DNA of 64,000 nucleotides from Parabacteroides sp. ZJ-118 (GTDB taxonomy: Bacteria > Bacteroidota > Bacteroidia > Bacteroidales > Tannerellaceae), in assembly GCF_011038785.1 (NCBI RefSeq), contig NZ_JAAKDT010000008.1:1-64000 (forward strand), in the 5' to 3' direction. Position numbers and translations under genes: made by a program. This document shows positions 9,449 to 30,308 of this stretch, piece by piece. The first letter of the stretch is position 1. The number at the start of each line of letters is the position of its first letter. The notes below the pieces were generated by a model. That model was not told the origin of the DNA, searched no databases, and worked only from the letters and a program-made list of their open reading frames with translations.

Positions 9449-10270
9449 CAGGGAGTGTATATTCCTTATTTTTCAAAGGAGCAAGTGCGTCAAAAATTTG
9501 GCCGGGTGGCAGATTCCTCGTAACTTTATAGGTAAAACTCAAACAGTTACACAGAAAATGAAGCCACTCGACCAAAAACGTTCGATTGAGGCATATACGC
9601 TCAATATCCGTCATCGTCTTGCCGACATCATCATACTGATGTCCTCGGCAGGGTCTGCGGACATGTCGGACGTACCGCAATAATGGAATTCGGTCGTCAC
9701 AACCTCGGCAGATTCCGTAAACTGGGTATACTCAGGAACGGGATACCCTCGGAAGCGACCCTATGCCGTGTTGCAAACGGCATAGACGATCTGGCTCTTG
9801 CCGACAAAATGCGGGAGTTCGCAGAAGTGTTCCACAAAGAACTGCTCAAAGCGGACTGCGACAAAGAGATAATCTGTGTGGACGGCAAGGCTGAACGAGG
9901 GACTGTCCAGGAGAACGGGCGCAATCCGGATATAGTGTCGGCGTATTCGTATGACACCGGCATCATATTGGCAACCGAGGCCTGCCTGAAAAAAAACAAT
10001 GAGATAAAGGCCGTCCCGCTACTTATCGACAAAATCAACATATCCGGAAAGATAGTCACCGCCGACGCCATGTCCATGCAGAAGGATATCATCGACAAAA
10101 TCAGAAAGAAGGAAAGTGATTTCCTGATAGAGCTAAAGGCGAACCAACGTTCTCTGCGCTACGAAGTTGAGGACAGACTAAAGGAGCACACGCCGCTTTA
10201 TTCATATACAGAAGGGCCGGAGCTCGGCCATGGCAGAAATGAAAAAAATCAAATTTTGATGAAAGTGTAA
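9449..10270 (+). mobile_element. ISAs1-family insertion sequence remnant
   Basis: A decayed insertion sequence. The left boundary is placed at a possible terminal repeat (CAGGGAGTGTATATT, 9449) and the right boundary where transposase similarity stops. No matching inverted right end or target duplication was found, so the right end is probably deleted. It lies between the divergent efflux operon and dusB. Confidence 0.6.
9558..10270 (+). pseudogene. ISAs1-family DDE transposase, frameshifted and truncated
   Basis: The transposase begins at MKPLDQKRS (9558) in one frame up to RHRLADIIIL (about 9638), then continues in another frame as VLGRVCGH and on through EFGRHNLGRF. The second frame holds the ISAs1 hallmarks: FRKLGILRNGIPSEATLCRV, the first catalytic aspartate in CVDGKAERG, SAYSYDTG, and the second aspartate in TADAMSMQKDI. 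Similarity ends just after GHGR, before the region expected to finish the catalytic triad and C-terminus. The family is usually about 370 residues; here roughly 235 remain over two frames, so it should be inactive. Confidence 0.85.
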
Positions 10271-12937: not shown

Positions 12938-12973
12938 TTTTCAATTCCCAACTTTCAATTTTTAATTCCCAAC

Positions 12974-13648
12974 ATGGCTCAATTCAATAAAATACAAACA
13001 TTACAGACTATCATCCAAACCGGAATGGTGCCCGTCTATTATGATAAAGATGTGGAGATCGCCAAACAGGTTGTAAAAGCCTGTTATAAGGGAGGAGTCA
13101 GAGCCTTCGAGTTTACTAACCGGGGAGATTTTGCCCACGAGGTATTTGGCGAGCTGGTTAAATACGCCGCCAAAGAATGTCCTGAATTAGTATTGGGCGC
13201 AGGTTCCATCGTAGACCCGGGCTCAGCCGCCTTATTCATGCAGCTAGGGGCAAACTTCGTAGTCGGTCCGTTGTTCAACCCGGAGATAGCGAAGATATGT
13301 AACCGTCGCCTCATCCCTTACACGCCCGGCTGCGGCTCCGTATCCGAGATCGGCTTTGCCCAAGAAGCAGGTTGCGATCTTTGCAAGATATTCCCCGCCG
13401 GAAATGTAGGAGGTCCCTCATTTGTCAAGAACATAAAGGCGCCCATGCCATGGAGCCTAATCATGGCAACCGGTGCCGTGGAGCCTACGGAAGAGAATCT
13501 ATCCGCTTGGTTCAAGGCCGGTGTGACCTGCGTAGGAATGGGATCTAAGTTGTTCCCCAAAGAAGCGATAGCAGGAAACCATTGGCAATCCATTACCGAT
13601 TTATGCCATAACGCCTTATCTATTATTCAAAAGTATCGCCAAGTATGA
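12974..13648 (+). CDS. kdgA: 2-keto-3-deoxy-6-phosphogluconate aldolase
   Basis: It cleaves KDPG to pyruvate and glyceraldehyde-3-phosphate, the last specific step of hexuronate breakdown. At 224 residues it matches the class I KDPG/KHG aldolases. The [12 protein letters not shown] segment carries the conserved glutamate region, and [14 protein letters not shown] carries the Schiff-base lysine. The stop overlaps the uxaC start (ATGA at 13645), so the two are translationally coupled. It is preceded by a short-period A/T repeat tract (about 12938-12973). Confidence 0.92.
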
Positions 13649-15048
13649 AAAGCTTTTTAGATCAAGATTTCTTGCTCCGGACCGACACGGCCCGCGAGTT
13701 ATATCACGAGCATGCGGCGAAGATGCCCATTATTGATTACCACTGCCACCTAGATCCCCGGCAAATAGCGGAGAATCATCAATTCGAGGATCTTACGGAG
13801 ATCTGGCTTGGCGGAGACCATTATAAATGGCGGGCAATGAGAGCCAATGGTATTCCCGAGGAATATATCACCGGAGATAAGCCCCCTTACGAGAAATTCC
13901 TTAAATGGGCCGAGACGATGCCTTACACGATGCGAAATCCGCTTTATCATTGGACGCATCTGGAGCTTAGCCGTATATTCGGGATCCATAAAGTCTTGAA
14001 TCCGGCTTCCGCCGAAGAAATCTATGCGACTTGTACGGATAAGCTACGTACCCCCGAATATCGTGCGCAGGCCATCATGAGACGGATGAACGTAGAGATC
14101 GTTTGTACAACCGATGATCCTATAGATTCATTGGAATACCATCAAAAAATACGTTCAAACGGATGCCATACCCGCGTATATCCGGCATGGCGGCCGGACA
14201 AGGTACTCGCTATCGATAATTTCAAGGCACTAAATGACTATCTGTCCAAGCTGGAGGCCGCTGCCGATAAAGCCATCCTCACCTACAAGCATTTATTGGA
14301 GGCTTTACAAAAACGACATGACTTCTTCGCCTCCCAAGGATGCCGGTTATCGGACCACGGGTTGGATACTTTCTACGCCGAGCCTTATACCGAGCGGGAG
14401 ATTGAGGAGATCTTCCTCAAGGCTCGCATGGGTAAATCACTCACGGAACAGGAAGTTCGCAAGTACCGTTCGGCATTGCTATACGAATTGGCAGCGATGG
14501 ATGCCCGGAGTGGATGGGTACAACAATTTCATATCGGCGCAAATCGGAATAATAACAAACGGATGTTTAAGTTATTAGGACCAGACGCGGGTTTCGACGC
14601 CATCGATGATCAACCGGTATCTGTCTCCATGAACCGTTTTTTCAGCCGTCTGGACCAAGAAAATCTACTGGCGAAAACGATCGTCTACAATCTCAACCCT
14701 CGCGACACCGAGCTAATGGTAGCCAATGCCTACAATTTTAACGACGGCAGTGCCCCCGGAAAGATGCAATATGGGGCGGCTTGGTGGTTCCTCGATCAAA
14801 TCAAAGGCATGGAAGATCAATTAAACGCACTTTCCAGCCTCGGTCTTCTAAGTCGTTTCGTCGGTATGTTGACGGATTCCCGTAGCTTCCTGTCATATCC
14901 CCGTCATGAGTATTTCCGCCGGATCCTTTGCGATATGTTAGGCAATGAGATTGAAATGGGTTTATTGCCCGCCTCCGAACGCTCCTTTATCGGTCAATTG
15001 GTAGAAAACATTAGTTATTATAACGCTAAGCGATACTTTGGTTGGTAG
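13645..15048 (+). CDS. uxaC: Glucuronate/galacturonate isomerase
   Basis: It converts D-glucuronate to D-fructuronate or D-galacturonate to D-tagaturonate. The 467-residue length is that of UxaC (amidohydrolase superfamily TIM barrel). Family features include [16 protein letters not shown], the metal-site [29 protein letters not shown], and [22 protein letters not shown]. With kdgK and kdgA it covers the first and last steps of hexuronate use; the reductase and dehydratase are not in this window. Confidence 0.96.
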
Positions 15049-15063
15049 TTACAGAAAACATTA

Positions 15064-15093
15064 TTGATTTCTCAGGAATTAGTTTTAACTTTG
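15064..15093 (+). promoter_or_regulatory. Promoter of ECF sigma factor gene
   Basis: TTG (15064-15066) and TAACTTTG (15086-15093) are 19 bases apart and fit the housekeeping Bacteroides promoter exactly. Transcription would begin near 15100. The sigma factor must therefore start at the ATG at 15120 rather than at an upstream in-frame codon near 15042. Confidence 0.65.
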
Positions 15094-15119
15094 CCCATAA
15101 ACTAGTTAGGACTAATTCC

Positions 15120-15707
15120 ATGAATAATAAGGCTTCGCTGGTAGAAAGAATTAGAAAGGGAGACCGTATTGCCTTTAATGAATTATATAGGCAATATTAT
15201 CTCTCTTTGCGTTCATACGCGGAGTTGTTTCTGGACGAAGAGGAGTCGGAAGATGTGGTGCAAGATGTTTTTCTGAATGTATGGTTACGGAAAGAAAGAC
15301 TGGATGATTCTCAATCTTTACAAGGCTATCTATTGCGTTCCGTGTATAATTCGTCATTGAATGTACTGAAAAAGAAAGGGCGTTCTAATGACTACCAGTC
15401 TATGTATGAATTAGAGATCGAGGAAATCGGATACAAATATTATGACCCAGATGCCAATGACGTGATACGCAAGCTCTATAACCAAGATTTACGAGCGGAG
15501 ATAAATGCCGCGATCAATAGTCTTCCCGCAAGATGCCGGGAAGTTTTCACCTTAAGTTACCTTCATGATATGCCCAGCAAAGAAATCAGCCTGCAACTAG
15601 GCATCTCATTAAGCACGGTCAATAATCATATTTATAGTGCCCTAAAGCTCTTACGTGAGAAGTTGAAGATACATTATAACATAAATAAAAAAGAGAGTTT
15701 TTTATAG
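15120..15707 (+). CDS. ECF-type RNA polymerase sigma factor
   Basis: This 195-residue protein would direct RNA polymerase to a small set of promoters when released by the adjoining FecR-like anti-sigma. Region 2 is seen in AFNELYRQYYLSLRSYAELF and SEDVVQDVFLNVW. Region 4 is seen as INSLPARCREVFTLSYLHDM followed by the helix-turn-helix SKEISLQLGISLSTVNNHI. The start at 15120 is chosen because the promoter lies just before it. Its stop codon lies inside a motif shared by three promoters in this locus, which I infer to be its own targets. Confidence 0.95.
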   Translation: MNNKASLVERIRKGDRIAFNELYRQYYLSLRSYAELFLDEEESEDVVQDVFLNVWLRKERLDDSQSLQGYLLRSVYNSSLNVLKKKGRSNDYQSMYELEIEEIGYKYYDPDANDVIRKLYNQDLRAEINAAINSLPARCREVFTLSYLHDMPSKEISLQLGISLSTVNNHIYSALKLLREKLKIHYNINKKESFL

Positions 15708-15731
15708 GTAGTTTGGGTTGAATGATTGTAT
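15704..15731 (+). promoter_or_regulatory. Candidate ECF promoter, copy 1 (anti-sigma gene)
   Basis: ATAGGTAGTTT, ten variable bases, then ATTGTAT. The same spacing and both blocks recur exactly at 17308-17335 and 22796-22823. This copy overlaps the sigma stop codon and ends 30 bases before the anti-sigma start, so the anti-sigma would be autoregulated. Confidence 0.65.
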
Positions 15732-15761
15732 TTAGTGCAAAGGAGAGAGTTTATATTCGAG

Positions 15762-16742
15762 ATGGACGATTCTATTATATACACCTATTTATCTGGTAAA
15801 GCGACAGAAGAAGAAAAGGCGCGATTGAGAGACTGGCTGAATCAGTCTCCCAAAAATCGTACCTATTTTTTTGATCTGAAAGCGATCCGGAATGCCCAAC
15901 GAGTAACCAATAAGATCAATGCGGAAGGAATAGAAGATTCACTCGCACGTATGAATAAACGAATCGACTCTATTCCACACTCTTCCAAGCGGGCAATCCT
16001 AAACATCCGGTTAAGACGCGCCAGTATTGCCGCTCTCTTATTTATTTGTGTCAGCTTATTTTGTCTATATATCACCCATCCGAGAGATGTGGCCAATCCC
16101 GGTAATAACCTTGTCACTTATACGAACGAGGCAACCGGCCATTCCGTGAAGATGATCCATCTCTCCGACGGGACGGTCGTATGGCTCGGAAGCCGCACCG
16201 TATTAACCGCTCCCTCGGTCTTTACCGGAGGAAAACGTGTGGTATGCCTAAGCGGAGAAGCTTTTTTCGATGTCACGAAAGATCCCTCCCACCCTTTTGT
16301 TATTCAAACAAATCTACATGAAGTACAGGTTTTAGGCACTTCATTCGGGATTAATACGGACGAGGAAGCCGGTATTTGCAAGACGATCCTAATGAGCGGT
16401 TCCGTACGGATACAAGATCCATCCGGGAATAATCTTGCCGTATTGACCCCGGGACAGCAGGCGCTATATTCACAAAAGACCGGGAACCTAGAAATCGAGG
16501 AGGTAGATGTAAATGCGCTTACCTCATGGCGCTTTGGCTTGATATCGCTATCGAATGTCGCGGTCAAGGAGATTTTGAGATGCCTGGAGGAGACCTATCA
16601 AGTAAAAATCCAAATGAATACCGCCTCGCTGGAAAATCGCCGTTACAACTTCTCTTTCAAGCATTCAAAAGGAGTCGAGGCCGCATTGAAACAACTCTTT
16701 TACATAACCGGAATATCCGCTAGTATTCAGCCTCAGCGGTAA
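15762..16742 (+). CDS. FecR-family anti-sigma factor
   Basis: An inner-membrane anti-sigma that would hold the ECF sigma factor and receive a signal from the STN domain of the SusC transducer. The N-terminal cytoplasmic part has ATEEEKARLRDWLNQS. One membrane segment lies near residues 87-105, followed by the periplasmic FecR domain (IHLSDGTVVWLGSRTVL, GEAFFDVTKD, HPFVIQT, VQVLGTSFGI) and a C-terminal STN-interacting part (SNVAVKEILRCLEETY). I choose the ATG at 15762; the longer frame starts with TTG inside the candidate promoter. The protein is 326 residues. Confidence 0.92.
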   Translation: MDDSIIYTYLSGKATEEEKARLRDWLNQSPKNRTYFFDLKAIRNAQRVTNKINAEGIEDSLARMNKRIDSIPHSSKRAILNIRLRRASIAALLFICVSLFCLYITHPRDVANPGNNLVTYTNEATGHSVKMIHLSDGTVVWLGSRTVLTAPSVFTGGKRVVCLSGEAFFDVTKDPSHPFVIQTNLHEVQVLGTSFGINTDEEAGICKTILMSGSVRIQDPSGNNLAVLTPGQQALYSQKTGNLEIEEVDVNALTSWRFGLISLSNVAVKEILRCLEETYQVKIQMNTASLENRRYNFSFKHSKGVEAALKQLFYITGISASIQPQR

Positions 16743-17562: not shown

Positions 17563-20500
17563 ATGAAGAAAAGTTTTTATGATTTTACCTCCGTCAAACG
17601 TTTATGCGTAGGGATGTCTTTATGCTGTATGGTCGCGGGAGCTCAAGCCGCTCCGACTTCCAGTGCATTTGACCAACGGTTTGACGTTGAGTTCTCACTC
17701 AACAACGCCACACTCAAAGCAGTGGTTAATTCCCTGAGAAAACAGACGGATATCGTATTCTCATACGATACATCTTTGGAATCTTTACGAGTAAACAACG
17801 TGTCGGTCAAAGCAGAGAATGAAAAGATCGAAGCTATTCTAGACCAAGCGTTCCGTGGTACCGGGATCAAGTACAAGATTGAAGACCGGATCGTGATGCT
17901 CTACTCCGGTAAAGAGCCATTGGCCAAGGCGAACGCTACACAACAAAGTACAAAAAAGATTTCCGGTATCGTTAAGGATCCGATGGGCGTTCCTGTCATC
18001 GGAGCGAACGTGATAGTAAAAGGAACTACAAACGGCGTAATCACCGGGTTGGACGGTGATTTCCAATTAGAGGTCCCGGAAAACGCCACCTTAGAGATCA
18101 GCTATATCGGTTACGTGACACAAAGCATCTCGGTGAGTGGAAAGAATACCTTCAACATCATACTGAATGAAGATACTCAGAAACTGGATGAAGTAGTGGT
18201 ATTAGGCTACGGTGCCGGACAACGTAAACAAGACTTATCCGCCTCTGTAGGTGTGTTAAATAATACAGAGGATTTGGTGGCCCGTCCGGTTACCTCTACC
18301 GAAAGTATGTTGCAAGGACAGTTAGCGGGTGTTACCGTACAAGCGAACGGTGGAGACCCGACGGCTACACCCTCGATCGTGATTCGCGGACAGGGTTCAC
18401 AGAATGGCGATAACGTATTGTGGGTTGTCGACGGTGTTCCCGGCGCACCCATCGCCTCCATGAATGATATCGAAACGATTGTCGTCTTGAAGGATGCCGC
18501 CTCTGCCGCTATCTATGGAGCGCAATCCGGAGCCGGTGGTGTTATCTTGGTAACCACCAAGAAGGCGAAAGAGGGCAAGACCTCGTTGAGCTATGACGCG
18601 ACTTTCGGTATTCGTAAAGCCAGCAACGTAGTCGAGCCGTTAAACGCGGAAGAGGAGCTCGAGATGCGAAAACTGTCTTACGCAAACGCAAGTCTTACAT
18701 TGCCGACCGGTTGGGACTTGACCAAAAACCCATGGGTAGGTACCACACGTACCGACTGGATGGATGAGATATTCCGTACCGCTTTCTATCAACGCCACAA
18801 CGTTGCCTTGAATGTTGGTTCCGAGAATGCCTCCAACCGTATTTCGTTCGCATACGATGACGATGAAGGTGTATTGATCAATACTTTCAACAAGAACCTT
18901 TCACTTCGTTACAACGGTAAATTCAAATTGAATAAATGGGTGACCATCACCGAAGACGTGGTTTGGAAGAACAACGAAAGCCGTTCAAAGGATACCGACA
19001 GCGGTTATACGGGAGTTGTCTCAGCGGCCATGTATATGCCTGCCAGCGCTACGGTTTACAATCCGCTGGATGGTACCTACGGGGGAACAACGACCGAAGA
19101 CCCGGACTATATCGCTCAATATGGCTCCAACTTCGCTGATATCCACGGAGACGCTGTCAATCCGGTTCGCTTGCTGGAAGCGGAGAACCGCTATAACCGA
19201 ACCAGCGACATCTGGAGTACGACCAGTCTGGAACTAGCCAATATCGTTACCGGTTTGAAGTTCACGAGCCGTTTTACTTACAACCTGAAGAATAATCTAT
19301 ATAAGAACTTCGACCCGATCCGTGACGAGGTGGGAAAACCCTCCTTGACAAATACTCTGGATGAAACGACTTACCGTGCGGACGCATGGAAAACGGAAAA
19401 CACATTGACTTACGACCATACGTTTAATGACATGCACACCGTGGGTGCCTTACTCTCCACTACGGCCGATCATTACAGCAAGCGAGGGTTAGAAGCCAAT
19501 GGAAAAGATCTATCTGACGAATCCGCTTACTTACAATATCTATCCTACGCGAGTTCCGTTTCCGCGACCGATTATTTGACCGGCCCTGACGCAAACGTAT
19601 CCTTGATCGCCCGTCTGGCTTATTCATTCAACGATCGTTACTTCGTCACAGCCTCTTGGCGCCGTGATTACGCAGGCCGTCTACCCAAAGATAATAACTA
19701 TGGCGACTTTCCTGCCGTAACAGCCGGATGGAAAATCTCCAATGAATCTTTCTTCCCGAAGAGCGAGACACTGAACTTGTTGAAGATCCGTGCTTCTTGG
19801 GGACGTGTCGGAAATCTGGGATCTATCGGTTACAATTATAAATCAGCCTTATTAGGTAAGACTTATTGGTCGGAACAAGCGCAGTATGGCGTAGAATCGA
19901 ACAAGATTTGGGGAAACTTCGTCTATAACTCTACCGCGTTAAATCCCGACTTAACATGGGAAACTTCCGAGCAATGGGACTTAGGTCTAGATGTAAACAT
20001 GTTCGATAATCGCTTGAGCATGGCATTCGACTATTTCGACAAACGCACGTTCAACTTGATCCAGTCGCAAACGATGAACTGGCCGGGAACGATCGGTATC
20101 AATGCCATGTTAGTCAATCAAGGCGAGATCCGTAACCGGGGCTTCGAAGCGCAAGTCAGTTGGAACCAACAAGTAAATAAAGATTGGTCGTACTTCGTTT
20201 CCGGGAACTTCTCTTATTTAAAGAACTGGGTTTCTGATATTGGCGTAAAGAACTCAGACGGGACTCCGGGGGTTTGGACAGGTGATGGTAGTTATCGTAA
20301 CCTTCCTTACATGTATCAGACCGCGGAAGGAGAACCTTTAGGCTCTTACTACCTGATCAAGACTGATGGCATTTTCCAAAGCGACGAGGAGGCCGCCGCT
20401 TATGTAGACAAAGACGGGAAACGAATCCAGCCGAACGCTACGGCCGGCGATTTGAAGTTTGTCGATGCCAATGGTGATGGAGTAATCAATGATGAAGACC

Positions 20501-21015
20501 GTCAGTACTGCGGTAGCGCTACACCTGAAACGACATTCTCATTCTCCGGAGGATTCACTTGGAAGAAGCTTTCCGTAAGCGCGATGTTCCAAGGCGTAGG
20601 TGGAGCACAAGCTTTATATGTAGGTAAATATATGGCCTTAAGCGATGTAGAAGGGAACTTCAACCGTTCAAGAGAGATCATGAACGCCTGGAGTCCATCG
20701 AATACAGGATCGAACATTCCACGCTTATCGAAGAACGACCCGAATAGCAACTTTAGTACGCCGTCAGATTGGTATCTGGAGAATGCTTCTTACTTGCGTT
20801 TGAAGAACTTCACCGTATCCTATGATTTGAGTGATGTTATCCGGAAATGCGCTCACTTGCAAGAACGCAACAGCATGATGTCGGTTTACCTTAGCGGTGA
20901 GAACCTCTTCACGATCACGGACTATTCAGGAATGGATCCGGAAACCGGTGGTTGGGATGCCTTGAAGTATCCGGTCTCACGCATATTCTCTGTAGGAGTC
21001 AAGTTGACATACTAA
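17563..21015 (+). CDS. SusC-like TonB-dependent transducer with STN domain
   Basis: An 1150-residue outer-membrane glycan importer that also signals to the anti-sigma. After a signal peptide (to about residue 30) comes an STN domain (about 40-113, FDVEFSLNNATLKAVVNSL), a carboxypeptidase-D-like beta domain (132-205, ISGIVKDPMGVPVIGANV), the LDEVVVLGYG TonB-box-like segment (208-217), the plug, and a 22-strand-type barrel ending in an aromatic-rich strand (SVGVKLTY). The STN domain is the hallmark of ECF/FecR-coupled transducers and fits the sigma and anti-sigma genes just upstream. It pairs with the SusD gene 41 bases downstream. Confidence 0.96.
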   Translation: MKKSFYDFTSVKRLCVGMSLCCMVAGAQAAPTSSAFDQRFDVEFSLNNATLKAVVNSLRKQTDIVFSYDTSLESLRVNNVSVKAENEKIEAILDQAFRGTGIKYKIEDRIVMLYSGKEPLAKANATQQSTKKISGIVKDPMGVPVIGANVIVKGTTNGVITGLDGDFQLEVPENATLEISYIGYVTQSISVSGKNTFNIILNEDTQKLDEVVVLGYGAGQRKQDLSASVGVLNNTEDLVARPVTSTESMLQGQLAGVTVQANGGDPTATPSIVIRGQGSQNGDNVLWVVDGVPGAPIASMNDIETIVVLKDAASAAIYGAQSGAGGVILVTTKKAKEGKTSLSYDATFGIRKASNVVEPLNAEEELEMRKLSYANASLTLPTGWDLTKNPWVGTTRTDWMDEIFRTAFYQRHNVALNVGSENASNRISFAYDDDEGVLINTFNKNLSLRYNGKFKLNKWVTITEDVVWKNNESRSKDTDSGYTGVVSAAMYMPASATVYNPLDGTYGGTTTEDPDYIAQYGSNFADIHGDAVNPVRLLEAENRYNRTSDIWSTTSLELANIVTGLKFTSRFTYNLKNNLYKNFDPIRDEVGKPSLTNTLDETTYRADAWKTENTLTYDHTFNDMHTVGALLSTTADHYSKRGLEANGKDLSDESAYLQYLSYASSVSATDYLTGPDANVSLIARLAYSFNDRYFVTASWRRDYAGRLPKDNNYGDFPAVTAGWKISNESFFPKSETLNLLKIRASWGRVGNLGSIGYNYKSALLGKTYWSEQAQYGVESNKIWGNFVYNSTALNPDLTWETSEQWDLGLDVNMFDNRLSMAFDYFDKRTFNLIQSQTMNWPGTIGINAMLVNQGEIRNRGFEAQVSWNQQVNKDWSYFVSGNFSYLKNWVSDIGVKNSDGTPGVWTGDGSYRNLPYMYQTAEGEPLGSYYLIKTDGIFQSDEEAAAYVDKDGKRIQPNATAGDLKFVDANGDGVINDEDRQYCGSATPETTFSFSGGFTWKKLSVSAMFQGVGGAQALYVGKYMALSDVEGNFNRSREIMNAWSPSNTGSNIPRLSKNDPNSNFSTPSDWYLENASYLRLKNFTVSYDLSDVIRKCAHLQERNSMMSVYLSGENLFTITDYSGMDPETGGWDALKYPVSRIFSVGVKLTY

Positions 21016-21056: not shown

Positions 21057-22688
21057 ATGAAAAGATATATTACAGCATTAGCATTATCCGCATTGGTTTG
21101 TAGCTCTTGTAGCGACTTCCTCGACGTTCAGCCGGAAGGAGACGCGGCTACAACCGCCTATTTTCTAAATGACCAACAAGCCATTGATGCCGTTGACGGA
21201 TTGTATGAAAGATTCCACCAAGAAGGTTGTTACGGCCGTGAGTTATTTTGGGAGCAGGGAGCCGCATGCGACATCGTTTGGGGACGTACACGCGGTTATA
21301 ACTCTTTGGCGATCTTAGCCTATACCGGTGATGAATCTCCTTTGAGAAGCGTATTTGGCCGTATGTATTCTACCATGTCTCGCGCGAATTGGATCATCCA
21401 GGAATTAGTGAAGAAAGAGAAGGAGACAACGCTGACCGCTATCGAAAAACGCAGCTTGGGCGAGGCCTATTTCAACCGCGGTTGGGCACATTACCTGATC
21501 GCCTATCGATACGGTACGGATAAACAAGGAGTACCTTTTGTGCGTTACGAGGACTTCCCCGGCGATTACGACAACTCCATACCTCCTCAGCAGGCTACCG
21601 TTATGGATAATTACAAACTGATTATCGAAGATATGGACAAGGCGATCGCCTACCTGCCAAGGTTCGAGTCCTATGATTCCGACAACCGCGGTCGGGCACA
21701 CCAGGCCGCTGCCGTGGCGTTCAAAGCGAAAACGTATGCTTACTGGGCTACCTGGGATGCTAGCCAATGGAACAACGTGATCGAGATGGTCAATCAATTG
21801 GAGAGCAATTACAATCGGGACTTAGCTCCGACATTCGCCGAGATCTTCTCGTCAGACTTGAAGAATTACTGGAACGCCGAATACCTGTGGAGCATTCCGG
21901 GCATCGGTGGAGCGATACCGGGTGGTTCCGAATTCCCGGGTGTTGTCCTAGAGAACAAAGGCTGGGGCAAATACAATGGTTGGGGGCAGATGAAGCCTTC
22001 TTACGACATCTACGAAGAAATGGTGAAAGATGGTAAAGGCAATGACCGTTTGGTGCACTCTATTTTGGAATACAACCAAGAGTTCACGTTCTTTGGCGAG
22101 ACACGTAAATTCTGGTCTACCTCCGACCTTGAGGCTGGTTTCATGATCAATAAATACATGGACGCATTCAAATACTCAGACCCTGTAGAAGAAGGAGCCG
22201 TGAGTTACAACGGCAACTGGCCTACAACCCGTGTCAATTTCCCGATCATCCGTTTCGCGGAAATGTTATTGTTCCGTGCCGAGGCCTATTTAATGACAGG
22301 GCAAGCCGATAAAGCGACCGCAGACATCAACCGCATCCGTCTACGCTCCAATTTGACACCGCTTGCCGGCACCGCCACGATGAAAGATCTATATCACGAA
22401 CGCCGTTGTGAGTTGGCTTTCGAGTTTACAGATCATCTATTCGACTTAAAGCGTTGGAACCGTTCTTCCAATGCCGACATAAAGGCACTGGCCGATAAAG
22501 AGTTGAACGCACACCCGCGTATCCGCAGATATGAAGACCGGGCAAATCCGGAATCCCCATTCACGGTGATTGGCTACGAAGATTACACCAACAAAAACGC
22601 CTATCAAGCGTATATGATGGTATTCCCGTATCCGAGTGAAGAGGTTACTAAATCGAACGGTCAATTGAAGCAGAACGAGGGATATTAA
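21057..22688 (+). CDS. SusD-like surface glycan-binding lipoprotein
   Basis: This 543-residue lipoprotein would sit on the cell surface as the lid of the SusC barrel and bind the glycan. The lipobox is VCSSCSD (cysteine about residue 18). SusD/RagB features include the FLDVQPEGD start, TPR-like helices (AEAYFNRGWAHYLIAYRYG), RFAEMLLFRAEAYLMTGQ, INRIRLRSNL and LYHERRCELAFE. Glycan specificity cannot be read from sequence. The gene directly follows susC, and a hairpin follows it. Confidence 0.95.
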   Translation: MKRYITALALSALVCSSCSDFLDVQPEGDAATTAYFLNDQQAIDAVDGLYERFHQEGCYGRELFWEQGAACDIVWGRTRGYNSLAILAYTGDESPLRSVFGRMYSTMSRANWIIQELVKKEKETTLTAIEKRSLGEAYFNRGWAHYLIAYRYGTDKQGVPFVRYEDFPGDYDNSIPPQQATVMDNYKLIIEDMDKAIAYLPRFESYDSDNRGRAHQAAAVAFKAKTYAYWATWDASQWNNVIEMVNQLESNYNRDLAPTFAEIFSSDLKNYWNAEYLWSIPGIGGAIPGGSEFPGVVLENKGWGKYNGWGQMKPSYDIYEEMVKDGKGNDRLVHSILEYNQEFTFFGETRKFWSTSDLEAGFMINKYMDAFKYSDPVEEGAVSYNGNWPTTRVNFPIIRFAEMLLFRAEAYLMTGQADKATADINRIRLRSNLTPLAGTATMKDLYHERRCELAFEFTDHLFDLKRWNRSSNADIKALADKELNAHPRIRRYEDRANPESPFTVIGYEDYTNKNAYQAYMMVFPYPSEEVTKSNGQLKQNEGY

Positions 22689-22731
22689 CCGGTTCCTTTA
22701 AACCGATCCAGGTACGAATAAGATTCAATTA

Positions 22732-22760
22732 CGGGCTGTTTCATTTCCTGAGACAGCCCG
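22732..22760 (+). terminator. Hairpin after susD
   Basis: Perfect 8-bp arms CGGGCTGT and ACAGCCCG enclose a 13-base loop and are followed by a modest T-rich stretch (TGTTATTTCC). It could end or process the susCD transcript; the third ECF motif copy follows 36 bases later. Confidence 0.55.
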
Positions 22761-22795
22761 TGTTATTTCCTACCGGGTAAAAACGCATATCTCAG

Positions 22796-22848: not shown

Positions 22849-25722
22849 ATGAGATTCATTCAAACGCTTTCTTCTTGCTTGTGTACGGGACTGATAGCCT
22901 TATTCACGGCCTGTAGCCAAGCGCCACAATCCCCCATCGATTCCGTGAATCCATTTATCGGCACGGGATTTCACGGACACACGTATCCAGGGGCCACGGC
23001 TCCCTACGGAGCGGTCCAGCTCAGTCCGGATACCCGGAAAGGGAACTGGGACGCCTGTTCCGGTTATCATTACAGCGATTCCACCTTAATGGGATTCTCC
23101 CATACCCATTTAAGCGGTACGGGATGTATCGACCTTGGCGATATCCTGTTCCGTCCGTCTCTCCGGACACCTTTAGCCTTCTCTCACTCGGACGAGAAGG
23201 CCTCTCCGGGCTACTACTCGGTGAATCTCAGGGAGGCAGGCGTATTGGCGGAACTTACCGCGACCCCGCATGTCGGAATACACCGATATACCTATAAAAA
23301 AGGGACAGAGGCTACGCTGGTGGTCGATATGGATCATTCATTGGACAACGAATATATGTACGAAGGCTGGGTAAAGCGAACCGGGGAGAATGAGCTTACC
23401 GGTATGAGACGTACCCGGGGCTGGGTAGACAATCAATATGTCTTCTTTGTAGCGCGGTTCTCGCGACCCTTCTCTTCCATGGAACAGCCTTCCGAACGGC
23501 AAGCCGTACTTACCTTCGATACGGCCACCGGGGAGCCTGTCGTCTGCAAAGTCGGGGTATCGATCGTAAATGAGGAGAACGCCCGCCTGAACCTTGAGCA
23601 AGAGACGGATTCCTATGGCTTTGATTTCGATGCCATCCATCAGGCGACACGCTCCGACTGGGAAAAAGAGTTGGACGCTATCACGGTAGAAGGAGGCACC
23701 GAAGCCGAGCGCGCGAATTTCTATACGGCGCTATACCATAGCAAGATCATCCCGAATATAGCGAGCGACGCGAACGGACAATACCGCCGTCACGACATGA
23801 GCGTAGCGACGCTCCCGACAGGCCGCCGCCAATTCTCTACCTTCTCCACGTGGGATACCTTCCGGGCCTGGCATCCGCTGATGACTTTACTGGATACTAC
23901 CTTGGTGAATGATATGATACAGTCTCTCTTGGATATGTACGACGCTAGCGGCGAGCTTCCGTTGTGGCCCTTATCGGCGGGCGAGACCGGAACCATGATT
24001 GGTTATCACTCCACATCGATTATAGCGGACGCCTATTTGAAGGGCATTCGCGGATATGACGCGGAACACGCTCTCGAGGCGATGAAAATCTCGGCGGAGA
24101 AGAACCAGAAAGGAGCGGATTATTACATAAGGGAGGGCTTCATCCCGGCGAATATCAAGAAAGAATCGGTTTCCTGTTTATTGGAATTCGCCTACGATGA
24201 TTGGTGTATCGCGCAAATGGCGAAAGCTTTAGGACATATGGATGATTATGAGACATTCATCGAGCGCTCCCGGAATTTTATCCATGTATTCGACGGCAGT
24301 ACCCGGTTCTTCCGGGGCAAACGGCAGGATGGGAATTGGGAGGCACCTTTCGATCCATTCGCCATCGGACGTTCCTATACGGAGGCTACGGCTTGGCAGT
24401 ATCGTTTCTTTACGCCGCATGACGTATATGGATTGACCCAGTTGTTCGGGGGCAAGGAGGCGTTCATCGCGGACCTGGACAGCCTGTTCACAGTCACCTC
24501 CGAGGTAGTCGGTGATCTGGCAGACGTTACCGGATTGGTCGGTCAATACGCGCATGGCAACGAGCCCAGCCACCACATGGCTTACCTGTACAGCTACGTG
24601 GGCGAGCCGTGGAAAACCCAAGAATGGACCCGTCGCTTGTTGGACGAGATGTACCAACCGACGCCCGAGGGGATTGTCGGCAACGAGGACTGCGGGCAGA
24701 TGTCCGCCTGGTACCTGTTGAGCAGCCTGGGCTTCTACTCCGTCTGCCCGGGCAGCAACCAGTTTATCCTGACTACACCGCTCTTTGACAAAGCGACCGT
24801 GAGACTTGGAAACGGGAAGAGACTTACGGTCACGGCGAACCAGCCGGATAAGAACACCTACATCACGAGCGTATCGCTGAATGGAGAAGAGATCAAGTAC
24901 TGCTATATCACGTACGACCAATTGATGCAAGGAGGCACACTGGCGTTTACGCTCTCGGCGACACCGGACAAGCGTTGGGGAACCGCTCCCGAATGCGCTC
25001 CCTATTCCTATACGGAACAGCCCACCGTCTCCATCCCCTACATAGCGAATGACCTGGATCTGTTTGAAGGCGAGGTTTCGGCGGAGCTAAGATCCGCGAC
25101 ACCCGAGGCCGTTATCCATTATACACTTGACGGATCGGAGCCGGACGAGAACGCGCCTGTATACAGTGAGCCACTCGTCTTGAAAGAGACCGCGACGATC
25201 AAGGCCAAGGGATATAAAAAGGGATTCGCGCCCAGCCGTACGTACTCGATCCAGGCGACGAAAGCCGTATTACGCCCCGCGTTATCCATCCGGCCTACGA
25301 AGCATGGGGTAGCTTACACCTACTACGAAGGAGCGTTCCAATGGGTAGCCGATCTGCCAAAGGCGAAGGTAGTCGAGAGCGGGACGATGCCGGAGCCTTC
25401 TATCTCGAACGCCAAGCAGCCGGATCATTTCGGCTACATCTTCACCGGATATCTATACGCCCCGGAAGATGGTGTCTACGAGTTCAGTACCCGCTCAGAC
25501 GACGGCAGCGTCCTTTATATCGGCAAGGAGAAGGTCGTAGACAATGATGCCTCCCACGCCGCGATCGACGCGACGGGACGTATCCCCCTGCAAAAAGGCT
25601 ACCACCCCTTCGCCTTGCATTATTTCGAGGATTACGAAGGTGAGCACCTCAGCTGGAACTGGCGTACGCCAAGCATGTCTCAGCCGGACGCGATCCCTAC
25701 GGAAAACCTTTATATAAATTGA
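22849..25722 (+). CDS. GH92 alpha-mannosidase with CHB_HEX and PA14 domains
   Basis: It would be a calcium-dependent, inverting exo-alpha-mannosidase, secreted as a lipoprotein (TACSQ lipobox, about residue 24). The GH92 part covers about residues 35-730 with characteristic NPFIGTGFHGHTYPGA, GFSHTHLSGTG, GETGTMIGYHSTS and GNEDCGQMSAWYLLSSLGFY. The protein is 957 residues, about 200 longer than a plain GH92. The extension is a chitobiase-C-terminal-like beta domain (about 733-819, VIHYTLDGSEPDENAPVYS) and a PA14 domain (about 820-957, GVYEFSTRSDDGSVLYIG), both likely glycan-contact modules. It heads the enzyme operon under the third ECF motif. Linkage specificity among GH92 enzymes is not predictable here. 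Confidence 0.94.
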   Translation: MRFIQTLSSCLCTGLIALFTACSQAPQSPIDSVNPFIGTGFHGHTYPGATAPYGAVQLSPDTRKGNWDACSGYHYSDSTLMGFSHTHLSGTGCIDLGDILFRPSLRTPLAFSHSDEKASPGYYSVNLREAGVLAELTATPHVGIHRYTYKKGTEATLVVDMDHSLDNEYMYEGWVKRTGENELTGMRRTRGWVDNQYVFFVARFSRPFSSMEQPSERQAVLTFDTATGEPVVCKVGVSIVNEENARLNLEQETDSYGFDFDAIHQATRSDWEKELDAITVEGGTEAERANFYTALYHSKIIPNIASDANGQYRRHDMSVATLPTGRRQFSTFSTWDTFRAWHPLMTLLDTTLVNDMIQSLLDMYDASGELPLWPLSAGETGTMIGYHSTSIIADAYLKGIRGYDAEHALEAMKISAEKNQKGADYYIREGFIPANIKKESVSCLLEFAYDDWCIAQMAKALGHMDDYETFIERSRNFIHVFDGSTRFFRGKRQDGNWEAPFDPFAIGRSYTEATAWQYRFFTPHDVYGLTQLFGGKEAFIADLDSLFTVTSEVVGDLADVTGLVGQYAHGNEPSHHMAYLYSYVGEPWKTQEWTRRLLDEMYQPTPEGIVGNEDCGQMSAWYLLSSLGFYSVCPGSNQFILTTPLFDKATVRLGNGKRLTVTANQPDKNTYITSVSLNGEEIKYCYITYDQLMQGGTLAFTLSATPDKRWGTAPECAPYSYTEQPTVSIPYIANDLDLFEGEVSAELRSATPEAVIHYTLDGSEPDENAPVYSEPLVLKETATIKAKGYKKGFAPSRTYSIQATKAVLRPALSIRPTKHGVAYTYYEGAFQWVADLPKAKVVESGTMPEPSISNAKQPDHFGYIFTGYLYAPEDGVYEFSTRSDDGSVLYIGKEKVVDNDASHAAIDATGRIPLQKGYHPFALHYFEDYEGEHLSWNWRTPSMSQPDAIPTENLYIN

Positions 25723-25749
25723 TAGACCTATCATTAAACACTGAATCAT

Positions 25750-26898
25750 ATGAGAAGAACAACTCTATCCGTGCTATCGGCCTTAGCCCTCCTGCTGTCC
25801 GGCCCGATCGTTCCGGAAGTTGCGGCACAAAGCCGCCGAGATAAAGAGCAAACGTATGTACTGGAAAAGCCATACGAGGTAAAGAAATTAGTCCCCCCTA
25901 CCGGGAAGAAAGTAAAGAACGTGATCCTGATGATCGGCGACGGAATGAGCCTTATGCACATGTATTCCGCTTGGACCGCCAACCGGGGTAAACTCTGGCT
26001 GGACAATTCCCAATACACCGGCCTCTCGAAAACCTATTGCGCCGACCGCCTCATCACCGACTCCGGAGCCGGAGGCACGGCGCTGGCCACCGGCCATAAG
26101 ACGAACTACCACATGGTAGGCGTAGACCCGGAAGGCAAGCCCTTGGAATCTCTGGCTGCCTTGGCGAATAAGAAGGGCCTGTCGAGCGGCATCGCCGTTA
26201 CCTGCCGGCTATGGGACGCTACTCCCGCCGACTTCTGCTGCCACAATACGGATCGCGACGCCGAGGCCGAGATCGCGGCGGATTACGTGAACTGCGGCGT
26301 CGACTACGTATTCGGCGGTGGCTCCAAGCTATTCGAGAACCGTGCGGACGGACGTGATCTGTTCAAGGAATTGAGGGAGAAGGGTTACCAGACTCCCCGT
26401 AGCTGGGAGGAGCTGGCGAAGATCCAAAAAGGCAAGGTATTCTGCGTTACCGATACGGTAGACACCCCGGTTCCCGCCAAACGAGGCGACCTCCTGGCGC
26501 GTGCCTCGATGAAAGCGATCGATCTGCTGGGACAGAACCCGGAAGGTTTCTTCCTGATGGTAGAGGGCTCCCAATTGGACGATTACGGACATTTCAACGA
26601 TATCGACCTGTTGATGCAAGAGACGCATGATTTCGACCGTACGATCGGGCGCATCTTCGAATGGGCCGCCCAAGACGGGGAGACCTTGGTGGTCGTAACC
26701 GCCGATCACGAGACCGGTGGCCTGACCCTCGTGGACGGCGACCTGAACGAGGGCCGTATCGTCTGTAAATTCTCCACCGGCAGCCACAGCGGCGTCATGG
26801 TTCCCGTCTACGCTTTCGGCCCGGGCTCCGAGCACTTCTCGGGTATCTTCGAGAACACGGACATCTTCTGGAAGATCAAAAAGCTCCTGAACCTATAA
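25750..26898 (+). CDS. Secreted alkaline phosphatase
   Basis: A 382-residue periplasmic or surface phosphomonoesterase of the PhoA superfamily. After a signal peptide (about 1-26) it shows the metal-site NVILMIGDGMSLMHM, the nucleophile motif TDSGAGGTALATGHKTN (serine about residue 105), EGSQLDDYGHFND, and the zinc-site VVTADHETGG and GSHSGVMVPVYAFG. It follows the GH92 gene by 27 bases in the same operon. A phosphatase within a mannosidase locus suggests the glycan carries phosphate. It is not placed next to Pho-type genes. Confidence 0.93.
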   Translation: MRRTTLSVLSALALLLSGPIVPEVAAQSRRDKEQTYVLEKPYEVKKLVPPTGKKVKNVILMIGDGMSLMHMYSAWTANRGKLWLDNSQYTGLSKTYCADRLITDSGAGGTALATGHKTNYHMVGVDPEGKPLESLAALANKKGLSSGIAVTCRLWDATPADFCCHNTDRDAEAEIAADYVNCGVDYVFGGGSKLFENRADGRDLFKELREKGYQTPRSWEELAKIQKGKVFCVTDTVDTPVPAKRGDLLARASMKAIDLLGQNPEGFFLMVEGSQLDDYGHFNDIDLLMQETHDFDRTIGRIFEWAAQDGETLVVVTADHETGGLTLVDGDLNEGRIVCKFSTGSHSGVMVPVYAFGPGSEHFSGIFENTDIFWKIKKLLNL

Positions 26899-26937
26899 TC
26901 AAACCGTATTCATCCCCACCTATAAATCGCATAAAGC

Positions 26938-28566
26938 ATGACAACAAGACGAAACTTCTTAAAGCAATCCCTTCTCGCGGCAGGCGCGGCCTCCGTTCCC
27001 GCCGGGAGCCTTTTGGCGCAAGAGAAGACGGAAGAGAAACGACCCAAATACAACCTGCCTTACAAGAACACCTACCTGAAGGAACCCTTCGTGACGGAAA
27101 ACGTGTTCCGGACGGCGAGGCCGGAGACCATCGTTCCCGGCACCTTCGAGGAGGCCCGGCAGATCCTCCCGAACCCGACCTGGAGCGGGCATGAGAAAGA
27201 GATCGAGATGTACTGGAAGGCTTGGCAGATCGGCATCGGCAACATCAAGGCGCCGGAGCCGGATTCCGGTTTCGTATGCAGCTACCTCGATGTCGCCTAC
27301 AACGGCAACATCTTCATGTGGGACTCCGCCTTCATGATGATGTTCGCTCGTTTCGGTACCCGCTTCTTCCCTTTCCAGCGCACGTTGGATAATTTCTACG
27401 CCAAACAGCATCCGGACGGTTTCATCTGCCGGGAGATCAAGGCGGACGGGGCGGACTGTTTCGAGCGTTACGACCCGACCAGTACCGGCCCGAACATCCT
27501 TCCCTGGAGCGAGATCGTCTATTACAAGCAGTTCGGCGATATGGACCGCTTGCACAAGATCTTCCCGGCCCTTTGCGCGTATTACAAATGGCTGAAGCTG
27601 AACCATACGTGGCGTAACGGCACGTATTGGACCAGCGGCTGGGGTACCGGCATGGACAACATGCCCCGGGTGGAACCGAAATACAACCCGATCTACAGCC
27701 ACGGCCACATGATCTGGCTGGACGTCTGCTTGCAACAATACTTCACCGCCGGGCACCTGCTTGAGATGGGCTTCTACCTGGAGCGTTGGCAGGAGATCGA
27801 GGAGTTCGAGGACGAGCAGAAGATGCTGAAGAGGTATATCAACGAGCACCTGTGGGACGAGAAGGCGCATTTCCTGTTCGATCAATACGCCGACGGGAGC
27901 CTCTCCTCCACCAAGGGGATCTACGCGTACTGGGCCTTGTTGACCGATGTCTTGTCCAAGGAGCGCATGGACGCCTTCGTAGCCGAGCTGGACAACAAGG
28001 AGACCTTCAACCGCCTGCACCGCGTCCCCTCCCTTGCCGCCAACCATCCCAAATACAAGGACAACGGCCGCTACTGGCAGGGGGGCGTATGGCCGGGGGC
28101 GAACTATATGGTGATTACCGGCCTGCTGCAACAAGGCTATCGTAAATTGGCTTACGAGATCGCGCGCAACCATTACGATAACGTCCTCAAGGTATATAAG
28201 AAGACCGGGACGTTCTGGGAATACTACGCCCCGGAGCATGAGGAGCCGGGCTTCATGGCCCGCCGGGATTTCGTCGGTTGGGGCGGACTGGCGCCGATCG
28301 CCGGCTTGATCGAGCAGATCTTCGGCATCCGCTCCAATGTGTACGAGAAGCGACTGACCGTAGACGTGAACCTGACGGAGGCGTATGGCATCGACCGCTA
28401 TCCGTTCGGCCTCGACGGGCTGGTAGCGATCAAGGTCAAGGCCCGCTCTTCCGCCGGCCAAGAGCCGGAGGTGGAAATTACGAGCGACGTCTCCTTGGAG
28501 CTCACCGTCTCGTGGGGCGACAAGCAGAAGACGGCTCACGTAAAACCCGGCACGCAGACCGTATAA
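26938..28566 (+). CDS. Tat-exported (alpha/alpha)6-barrel glycosidase, trehalase/GH63-like
   Basis: A 542-residue predicted glycoside hydrolase of the clan that includes trehalase (GH37), GH63 and MGH1-like mannosylglycerate hydrolases. The start is a twin-arginine signal (TTRRNFLKQSLLAAG). Family-like blocks are FMWDSAFMMMFARFG, YDPTSTGPNILPWSE, YWTSGWGTGMDN, and GRYWQGGVWPGANYMVITGL, which usually hold the catalytic acid and base region. I cannot assign the bond cleaved. Its gene lies 39 bases after the phosphatase in the same operon. GC content is visibly high, which leaves a long antisense open frame that I regard as an artefact. Confidence 0.8.
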   Translation: MTTRRNFLKQSLLAAGAASVPAGSLLAQEKTEEKRPKYNLPYKNTYLKEPFVTENVFRTARPETIVPGTFEEARQILPNPTWSGHEKEIEMYWKAWQIGIGNIKAPEPDSGFVCSYLDVAYNGNIFMWDSAFMMMFARFGTRFFPFQRTLDNFYAKQHPDGFICREIKADGADCFERYDPTSTGPNILPWSEIVYYKQFGDMDRLHKIFPALCAYYKWLKLNHTWRNGTYWTSGWGTGMDNMPRVEPKYNPIYSHGHMIWLDVCLQQYFTAGHLLEMGFYLERWQEIEEFEDEQKMLKRYINEHLWDEKAHFLFDQYADGSLSSTKGIYAYWALLTDVLSKERMDAFVAELDNKETFNRLHRVPSLAANHPKYKDNGRYWQGGVWPGANYMVITGLLQQGYRKLAYEIARNHYDNVLKVYKKTGTFWEYYAPEHEEPGFMARRDFVGWGGLAPIAGLIEQIFGIRSNVYEKRLTVDVNLTEAYGIDRYPFGLDGLVAIKVKARSSAGQEPEVEITSDVSLELTVSWGDKQKTAHVKPGTQTV

Positions 28567-28601
28567 GCGCATCAACATCCAGACTCAAAAACAGTTCCTA
28601 T

Positions 28602-30308
28602 ATGATGAAACAGATTCGATCCTTATCCATCGCCACCCTTGTCCTCTGTACGGCTTGCGCCTCCCCGAGGGGCGACCGGCCGGAGCGCGACATGACCGTC
28701 GTCGTAGCGGGCGATCTTCATTTCGACCTCCTCCCGGAGAGCGACCAGTATTACCACGTAGTCACCATGAACCGCCTGCCCGGTCATTTCACCTTCCCGG
28801 CGGACGCGGCGCCCGGCATCGCCGGCGAGACGATCGGACGCGTGGATGGCGTGATCATCGCCGGAGACATGTTCGACAAGGCCCGTCCCGAGATCCTCTC
28901 CCTTTACCGGGAGCGATACGAGACCGGGCCGGGCGAGAAGACCATCCATTTCCCCGTGTATCCCGGCTTCGGCAATCACGACATCGATCCCGCCGTATCC
29001 GACAAGGGTGCCGACAACCTGGCCGGCCGCGCCTTCTCCCTGCATTACCTGGATTCTATCCTGCAGGATAAGCTGGCGAGGAAGGAGATCCTGAGCTTGC
29101 ACCCGTCCAGCCGCAGTTACTCCTGGAATATCGGCGACGTGCATTTCGTGCAAGCGCAACGCTTCTCCGGCGACACCGCCTATTGCGAGAGCAATCTCGA
29201 CTGGCTGGCGGACGACCTCGAGCGATATGCCTCCGCGGGCAACCCGGTGGTCTACATCCAGCATTACGGCGTAGACCCTTGGGCGATCCAATGGTGGCCG
29301 CAGGAGGCCCGCAACCGGTTGTTCGACCTGCTGGACCGGTACAACGTAGCCGCTTTCTTGGTAGGCCATACGCACGAACCCTCCTTGCGCCATTACCGGG
29401 GATATCCGATCTACCAGGTGAACAACGCCTGGCCGGACGAGGATGGCAACGGCTCGTTCGCCGTATTGCGCATAAAGGATAACGCCGTCGCCGCGGCGAC
29501 TTGCCGCTGGACTGACGACGCGGGCCATTTCGAGGTGGTGGGCCCTTACCTGAACGATACCCTTCCCCGCCGGATCAATCAAGCGATCCATTACAACGCG
29601 TTCTCCCACAACGATTATTGGCGAGAGAACCCGTTGCGGGACGCCTTGGCCTTCCGGTATAATTGCGTGGAGGCCGATCTGTGGCTGATCGACGGCGAGC
29701 TGTACGTCTCCCACGACCGCCCGGAGCCCGACCCGGCCATCACCTTCGAGAACCTCTACCTCAAACCGCTCGCGGCCCGTATACAGGCGAATGGCGGGAA
29801 GGTCTATCCCGGCAGCGACCGTCCTTTCTACCTGATGGTGGATTGCAAGGCAGAGGGCGAGGCGATGTACAAGGTATTGAAGAAGCAGATGGAGCCTTAC
29901 AAGGAGTACTTCTGCTCCGTCGATGAGGGGGTATATAAAGAGGGCGCCGTCCTCTTCTTCCTTTCCGGCGACCGTCCGAAGGAGAGCCTGCCGAAGGAGG
30001 AGAGCCGCCTCGCCTTCCTCGATGGGCAGATCAAGGACTTGGGACAAGGCATCCCGGCCACCCTCGCCCCGGTCGTAAGCGATAATTACGCCGCTTTCTT
30101 CACCTGGGAGGGCGACGGCGAGATGCCTGCCGACCAGCTGCGGAAGATGCGCGAGATCATCCGGCAAGTCCACGACGAGGGAAAGCTGTTCCGTTGGTGG
30201 GGCGCTCCGGATACCGAGGCGTTCAAGCGCTTCTTCATCGAGGAGGGCGTAGACCTGGTAGGCGCCGACAACCTGAACGGCTTATACAACGTCTTGAACG
30301 AGCAATAG
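28602..30308 (+). CDS. Lipoprotein: metallophosphoesterase fused to PI-PLC/GDPD-like domain
   Basis: A 568-residue lipoprotein (LCTACAS lipobox, cysteine about 19) with two catalytic-looking domains. The first (about 30-320) is a calcineurin-type phosphoesterase: AGDLHFD, IIAGDMFDKARPE, GFGNHDID, and FLVGHTHEPS give the metal ligands in order. The second (about 330-565) resembles PI-PLC/glycerophosphodiesterase barrels: FSHNDY (His about 336), CVEADLWL, and YVSHDRPEPD (His about 371). The start at 28602 is chosen for the lipobox; the open frame upstream overlaps the preceding gene in another phase. It is last in the enzyme operon. The pairing suggests sequential phosphodiester then monoester removal from an inositol- or glycerol-phosphate substrate, which is an inference. 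Confidence 0.85.
   Translation: MMKQIRSLSIATLVLCTACASPRGDRPERDMTVVVAGDLHFDLLPESDQYYHVVTMNRLPGHFTFPADAAPGIAGETIGRVDGVIIAGDMFDKARPEILSLYRERYETGPGEKTIHFPVYPGFGNHDIDPAVSDKGADNLAGRAFSLHYLDSILQDKLARKEILSLHPSSRSYSWNIGDVHFVQAQRFSGDTAYCESNLDWLADDLERYASAGNPVVYIQHYGVDPWAIQWWPQEARNRLFDLLDRYNVAAFLVGHTHEPSLRHYRGYPIYQVNNAWPDEDGNGSFAVLRIKDNAVAAATCRWTDDAGHFEVVGPYLNDTLPRRINQAIHYNAFSHNDYWRENPLRDALAFRYNCVEADLWLIDGELYVSHDRPEPDPAITFENLYLKPLAARIQANGGKVYPGSDRPFYLMVDCKAEGEAMYKVLKKQMEPYKEYFCSVDEGVYKEGAVLFFLSGDRPKESLPKEESRLAFLDGQIKDLGQGIPATLAPVVSDNYAAFFTWEGDGEMPADQLRKMREIIRQVHDEGKLFRWWGAPDTEAFKRFFIEEGVDLVGADNLNGLYNVLNEQ

Follow-up and report, generated by a model that had tools for sequence, protein, structure and literature searches.

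A block of four enzyme genes was analysed at positions 22,849 to 30,308 of contig NZ_JAAKDT010000008.1 of Parabacteroides sp. ZJ-118. The analysed stretch, positions 1 to 64,000 of the contig, is called the window, and all positions refer to it. Judged by its gene content, the block is the degradative part of a Parabacteroides polysaccharide-utilisation locus (PUL). A phosphodiester-to-monoester-to-sugar cascade acting on a small, phosphodiester-containing alpha-mannosyl glycan is considered moderately probable. The gene order, domain identity, conserved catalytic residues, recurrence in other genomes and domain fusions were observed directly, and the fusions provide the strongest evidence for the predicted phosphoester-centred function. 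PULs are normally read from their glycosidases, whereas the phosphoesterases are the recurring and repeatedly fused part here.

Organization of the Locus

The block encodes four secreted enzymes, a GH92 alpha-mannosidase, an alkaline phosphatase (AP), a GH63/trehalase-type glycosidase (GHx in this report) and a metallophosphoesterase~GDPD-like fusion, where the tilde denotes domains fused in one chain. All four open reading frames lie on the + strand and are separated by 27, 39 and 35 (or 38) bases; the start of the fusion gene was corrected from a mechanical TTG at 28278 to ATG at 28602 or 28605. An earlier sequence-only reading had described a tightly packed block in which two proteins carry three phosphate-ester hydrolase domains. 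The coordinates confirm the packing, and the domain count was correct (Alk_phosphatase, Metallophos and the GDPD-like C-terminal part). A SusC-SusD pair stands beside the degradative enzymes, and an ECF sigma factor and a FecR protein directly upstream provide the locus with its own regulator. All four of these genes precede the enzyme block.

15042..15707, + strand: ECF sigma-70 factor (TIGR02985, E 5e-46); the listed start, TTG, overlaps the stop of the preceding uxaC
15726..16742, + strand: FecR-type anti-sigma factor (PF04773, E 4e-14; PF16344, E 5e-9)
17563..21015, + strand: SusC-like TonB-dependent transporter with an STN domain (TIGR04056, E 8e-248)
21057..22688, + strand: SusD-like glycan-binding lipoprotein (PF07980, E 1e-29)
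22730..22762, + strand: hairpin of 14 pairs with a T-rich tail behind it, in the SusD-GH92 gap (-23.1 kcal/mol, z -6.7)
22849..25722, + strand: GH92 alpha-mannosidase with C-terminal Fn3_assoc/CHB_HEX_C and PA14 domains (Pfam)
25750..26898, + strand: alkaline phosphatase AP (PF00245; nearest solved relative 2w5v)
26938..28566, + strand: GHx, (alpha/alpha)6 glycosidase of the GH63/GH37/MGH1-like group, with a twin-arginine-like leader
28602..30308, + strand: metallophosphoesterase~GDPD-like fusion (residues 28-324, about 28683-29573; residues 327-568, about 29580-30305)

The hairpin between SusD and GH92 is a possible terminator or attenuator. Because it is strong, SusC/SusD and the enzymes need not share one transcript. 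Matches to the Bacteroidetes-type promoter pattern were no more numerous than in shuffled sequences.

Recurrence of the Locus in Bacteroidales

An alignment scan with GHx returned 299 relatives, and the locus counts refer to the best 80 of these. The counts were obtained by tblastn on the fetched stretches, on the same strand as GHx, and some stretches were cut by contig ends. The hosts were Parabacteroides, Bacteroides, Phocaeicola, Dysgonomonas, Prevotella, Hoylesella, Leyella, other Bacteroidales and one Gelidibacter, and several of the genomes came from ruminant stomachs according to their record titles. Bacteroides fluxus holds a larger version of the locus. Among 392 sampled genomes of the phylum, 17 had a GHx match, three of which (the window's own included) exceeded 50% identity.

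AP was found in 73 of the 80 loci, GH92 in 50, EEP in 48 and a ROK kinase in 38. Metallophosphoesterases occurred as a PA14 type (36/80) and as the window type (14/80), and GDPD-like domains as an AP-fused type (23/80) and as the window type (11/80). GH125 was present in 22 loci and GH20 in 14, whereas NPP-type phosphodiesterases (4/80), classical GDPDs (4/80) and PI-PLC (1/80) were rare. At least one GDPD-like, metallophosphoesterase or EEP family was detected in 72 loci; 65 also had AP, and 47 had GH92 in addition. With phosphoesterases of several folds in 72/80 loci and several fusion arrangements, the phosphorylated substrate proposed in the sequence-only reading is well supported by comparative genomics. 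From these comparisons, the constant core of the locus family is AP plus GHx rather than GH92. Hence, 'mannosylated' is the weaker part of the description and 'phosphorylated' the stronger, given this core and the 30 loci without GH92 on the strand. A gene for myo-inositol-1-phosphate synthase lay beside AP and GHx in L110 (1/80) and was not used as evidence.

The clustering of AP, GH92 and GHx is beyond chance. GHx occurred in 8 of 38 Parabacteroides genomes, and in all eight an AP and a GH92 lay within about 5 kb. The GH92 matches in the 38 genomes summed to 374; positions were compared by eye for those listed, and among these no other AP match was within 10 kb of a GH92. Moreover, no relative of AP, GHx, the GDPD-like domain or the metallophosphoesterase was found in the stretches read around the other five GH92 genes of the window genome.

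The AP and the phosphodiesterases might instead supply phosphate, with their placement in a PUL being incidental. Such scavenging is very unlikely here, although AP, GpdQ-like and GDPD-like enzymes are its typical activities, and AP and GDPD-like fusions also occurred without nearby GH92 or GHx (L052, L054, L063, L065 and L066). However, 35 of the 38 Parabacteroides genomes had a longer AP (about 570 aa) outside this locus. The locus AP accompanied GHx across genera in rearranged orders, and the PUL around it has an ECF/FecR pair of its own.

Domain Assignment and Catalytic Residues

The fusion protein matched Metallophos in Pfam (E 1e-11), and its C-terminal part had no Pfam match at E up to 1. 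Its AlphaFold2 model had a mean pLDDT of 89.8. The nearest folds of the metallophosphoesterase domain (residues 28-324) were Lmo2642, purple acid phosphatases, GpdQ and acid sphingomyelinase-like enzymes. PF00149 scored over its cut-off, the calcineurin-like motifs D-x-H, GD, GNHD and GHxH were found, and the motif was present in all 16 aligned sequences having the domain. The fold and metal motif are shared with the GpdQ glycerophosphodiesterase (2zo9, 2dxl and 3d03), but identity is 16-20%, and the window protein has a leader and is fused to a GDPD-like barrel.

In the model, the strands and helices of residues 327-568 follow one another as in a beta/alpha barrel. The profile of this domain matched the GDPDs of related loci (94.2%, E 1e-7), whereas its hhalign probability against the PI-PLC of L099 was 0.1%, and no PF00388 hit was found. 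The sequence-only reading had called this part PI-PLC-like, and it is renamed GDPD-like. The His, E-x-D and His motif of the GDPD superfamily was present together with the barrel and the profile similarity, and Pfam did not hit the window domain directly; in relatives, GDPD_2 scored over its cut-off in L063 and L069 and under it in L068. H336, D359 and K416 were conserved in 34 of 34 domains, and E357 and H371 in 33, the exception being L099. The assignment rests on profile comparison, motifs and the strand and helix order because the fold-search results cover residues 28-324.

AP matched Alk_phosphatase (E 5e-64, over the cut-off) and had the metal, Ser and Arg residues of the family. Its active site was complete in sequence, and 10 sites, a subset of those found, were invariant in 48 aligned APs. 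GHx matched MGH1-like (E 4e-34), Trehalase (E 3e-11) and GH63 (E 1e-9). With respect to the earlier label, a trehalase/GH63-like glycosidase, PF03200 scored over its cut-off, but PF22422, the MGH1-like model, scored best, and PF01204 also scored higher than PF03200. D240 and E428 were invariant (33/33), and they are the predicted acid and base from alignment with GH63 enzymes. The structure model had a mean pLDDT of 73.6 and was weak in stretches near the predicted acid, and the active site was therefore judged from sequence. GHx shares the (alpha/alpha)6 fold and the aligned Asp/Glu pair with GH63 glucosidases and mannosylglycerate hydrolase (3w7s, 4wvb); the fold group also includes GH37, GH78 and others.

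The window GH92 matched both family domains (N domain, E 1e-68; catalytic domain, E 1e-176). Its acid E512 and base D614 were retained, as in all 44 aligned GH92s, which were those with a PA14 domain and more than 900 aa (the window protein included). In the CcMan5 subtype, which acts on mannose-phosphate-mannose, the catalytic Glu is replaced. This residue was Glu in 44/44 locus proteins, and 2xsg and 4aq0 were the lowest-scoring GH92 structures. By bit score, the best solved relatives were 6f8z (BT3130, 610), 7zgm (587) and 6f91 (527), the last of which is taken to be BT3965; the alpha-1,2 enzymes 2wvx and 2wvy scored 405 and 377. BT3130 is likely alpha-1,3. BT3965 is described in PMC5930347 as an alpha-1,4-mannosidase, the alpha-1,4 linkage being a feature of fungal walls and GPI (glycosylphosphatidylinositol) cores; 7zgm is the Bacteroides massiliensis core alpha-1,3 enzyme (PMC9522356). 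In the alignment, the window GH92 lacked the stretch that holds Pro520 and Trp526 of BT3965, and it carries PA14 and Fn3-type C-terminal domains. The pair His584-Glu585 confers alpha-1,2 specificity in BT3990 (PMC5930347, available part). The window enzyme had G/D at this site (BT3990 numbering), and His was found there in none of the 44 locus GH92s. The enzyme thus probably cleaves an alpha-1,3 or alpha-1,4 linkage and not alpha-1,2.

The missing alpha-1,2 motif bears on a locus for phosphorylated or high-mannose N-glycans (lysosomal-type mannose 6-phosphate or GlcNAc-P-Man). GH92, AP, EEP, metallophosphoesterase, GH125 and GH20 occurred together in 9 of the 80 loci, as such a substrate would suggest, and the EEPs are related to a mannosyl-6-phosphatase. 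However, the His584-Glu585 motif is retained by another GH92 of the same genome, and GH18, GH85 and PNGase are missing both from the window operon and from the families listed for relatives. An N-glycan substrate is considered highly improbable.

Domain Fusions and the L099 Locus

Of the 80 loci, 21 contain GDPD-like~AP and six the window-type metallophosphoesterase~GDPD-like fusion. GDPD-like~AP~metallophosphoesterase~PA14 occurred in one, L100 of Parabacteroides sp. PF5-6, the genome that also holds L068. Outside the 80, AP followed by a window-type GDPD-like domain formed one chain in two genomes (L052 and L054), and a purple-acid-phosphatase-type enzyme was followed by a window-type GDPD-like domain in L060:7677-9917. 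The two AP-fusion kinds have opposite domain order and fall in different clades of the GDPD-like domain tree, indicating that they arose independently. Among close relatives, L046 has the GDPD-like half alone with the metallophosphoesterase half missing, and L045 has the reverse. An apparent AP~GHx fusion in L081 was dropped since it sits at a contig end. In the Prevotellaceae locus L129:2183-11626, an NPP-type phosphodiesterase, GDPD, GDPD-like~AP, metallophosphoesterase-PA14, EEP and a LamG/Big_2 protein lie in one operon.

A 737-aa protein beside AP and GHx in L099:2489-8583 has a true PI-PLC as its C-terminal part (E 1e-17 to 1aod). L099 alone among the 34 GDPD-like domains lost E357 and H371, and the other 33 retain all five checked residues. 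This single case suggests that PI-PLC replaced a degenerate GDPD-like domain, and that both may serve the same step, the opening of an inositol-phosphate or similar phosphodiester.

Proposed Mechanism and Substrate

The order of reactions, the periplasmic location and the substrate are deduced, and the following scheme is proposed. The glycan would enter through SusC/SusD. Its phosphodiesters would be opened in the periplasm by the metallophosphoesterase and GDPD-like domains, AP would strip the resulting phosphomonoester and GH92 would remove alpha-mannose. What recurs among the loci is the pairing of a phosphodiesterase and a phosphomonoesterase, accompanied by exo-glycosidases. GHx, by analogy an inverting alpha-glycosidase, may split a further core linkage. 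Acidic export-type signals, scored by a simple pattern rather than a trained predictor, were found in 35 of 45 SusDs with a recognised lipobox and in 3 of 73 enzymes with a lipobox (330 enzyme proteins listed). Because these signals are common on SusDs and rare on the enzymes, a periplasmic location is probable for the latter, and their substrate would be a small glycan brought in by import.

Mannose is indicated by GH92, by GH125 and by the EEPs of related loci. A profile of 19 locus EEPs matched PDB entry 4c1r, 'mannosyl-6-phosphatase' (E 8e-74), which is presumably BT3783. The window operon itself has no EEP to set beside this enzyme. GH125 enzymes are alpha-1,6-mannosidases, as stated in the available part of PMC10154615. 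The mannosylated nature of the substrate, as claimed in the earlier reading, therefore stands in part, with GH92, GH125 and the 4c1r-related EEPs on one side and the 30/80 loci without GH92 on the other.

Several observations weigh against the proposed cascade. GH92 is missing from the strand in 30 of the 80 loci (some on short contigs), where AP and GHx mostly persist. Seven loci have no AP, and eight have no GDPD-like, metallophosphoesterase or EEP family, although one of these, L115, has an NPP-type phosphodiesterase. PI-PLC occurs in a single locus. The window operon has no EEP, GH125, GH20, ROK or PI-PLC, and the argument therefore draws in part on the relatives. The EEP profile scores higher against the uncharacterised solved protein 3g6s than against 4c1r, and no significant match to a solved structure came from profile searches with the GDPD-like domain. 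Furthermore, AP can be a general phosphate-scavenging enzyme.

The sequence-only reading had named phosphomannan or GPI/inositol-phosphate glycans. In a yeast or fungal phosphomannan locus, the phosphoesterases would remove mannosyl-phosphate branches and GH92 would trim the mannan. Phosphate joins two mannoses in fungal mannan, and phosphatases of Bacteroides thetaiotaomicron remove phosphate during its breakdown (PMC10154615, available part). The match of the EEPs to 4c1r and the GH125 of 22 loci would also fit such a substrate. However, the GH76 endo-mannanase typical of yeast alpha-mannan PULs is not in the window operon. Among 67 unknown operon open reading frames of the relatives, 47 were scanned and 20 of those were rescanned together with two others. 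Neither the window operon nor the families listed for the scanned frames (25 of 72 in the first scan, 25 of 31 in the second) included an endo-mannanase, an endo-glycosidase, GH76, GH99 or GH38. GHx is not among the mannan-breakdown enzymes named in the available part of PMC10154615, and the loci without GH92 also speak against mannan. Since the material scanned yielded no endo-mannanase and the enzymes rarely carry export signals, a small glycan is favoured, and yeast phosphomannan is judged distinctly unlikely.

The second half of that earlier suggestion fits better. The PI-PLC swap in L099 and the variety of phosphodiesterases indicate a GPI or inositol-phosphate glycan, and a GPI-type glycan is the best single fit, to be taken as tentative. 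A plant or fungal glycosyl inositol phosphoceramide, or a bacterial phosphatidylinositol mannoside (PIM), is an unlikely substrate in its place. GH20 (14/80) is unexpected for PIM. Uronate genes (at least one of kdgK-kdgA-uxaC) were considered as a sign of a glucuronate-bearing substrate; they occurred in 9 of 113 loci searched. All nine belong to the genus or family of the window, and loci that lack the PUL (L047, L056) are among those with such genes. This pattern looks like site synteny, and the candidate sign was rejected. Two further loci of the 113 had dusB only.

With a GPI-type substrate, the phosphodiesterases would open ethanolamine-phosphate and inositol-phosphate links and AP would clear the phosphates. 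GH92, GH125 and GHx would each take one core linkage, GH20 would take a HexNAc (N-acetylhexosamine) side branch, and in L099 the PI-PLC would have taken over the reaction of the degenerate GDPD-like domain. That Bacteroidales share a widespread family of PULs devoted to GPI-type glycans is possible though doubtful. If it exists, gut and rumen bacteria would reach the GPI glycans of host, yeast and protist surfaces, and phosphodiester glycans such as GPI would constitute a little-recognised nutrient class. Candidate enzymes, including the conserved GHx glycosidase and single-chain phosphodiesterase-phosphatases, might then be useful as tools for trimming GPI or phosphorylated glycans.

Neighbouring Genes and Genomic Site

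Immediately before the ECF sigma gene come genes for a PfkB-type kinase, KDPG aldolase and UxaC (11894-15048). The L047 locus (G055) has dusB-kdgK-kdgA-uxaC with the GDPD-like gene alone behind it, so the site is a fixed one that holds the PUL in some genomes and not in others. Regulators with a periplasmic-binding-protein domain and an AraC-type helix-turn-helix were found in 18 of the 80 GHx loci (L102, L107 and L088 among them). A large C10 cysteine peptidase with a Spi-type propeptide and many repeats is encoded on the opposite strand at 30496-35616, and a relative occupies the same place in L037/L075; this neighbour recurred in 1/80 GHx loci and was not used as evidence. An apparently truncated ISAs1-family transposase (195 aa) lies at 9683-10270. 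Long antisense open frames on the minus strand opposite GHx and the fusion, at 26959-28578 (539 aa) and 28623-30173 (516 aa), were taken as shadow frames.

Comparison With Known Systems

The PUL is known as a kind, and its phosphoesterase-centred composition is new as far as was seen. No description of this locus type was found in the literature, judged by titles and abstract starts with subscription papers mostly outside reach, which is weak evidence of novelty. Phosphatase terms were absent from PMC9213526. The closest comparison is with the alpha-mannan PULs of B. thetaiotaomicron, described in the available part of PMC10154615. Both combine GH92 and GH125 (the latter in the relatives) with phosphatases. 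The B. thetaiotaomicron systems use GH76, GH99 and GH38, whereas GHx, AP, the metallophosphoesterase and the GDPD-like domain are found here, with no endo-enzyme seen.

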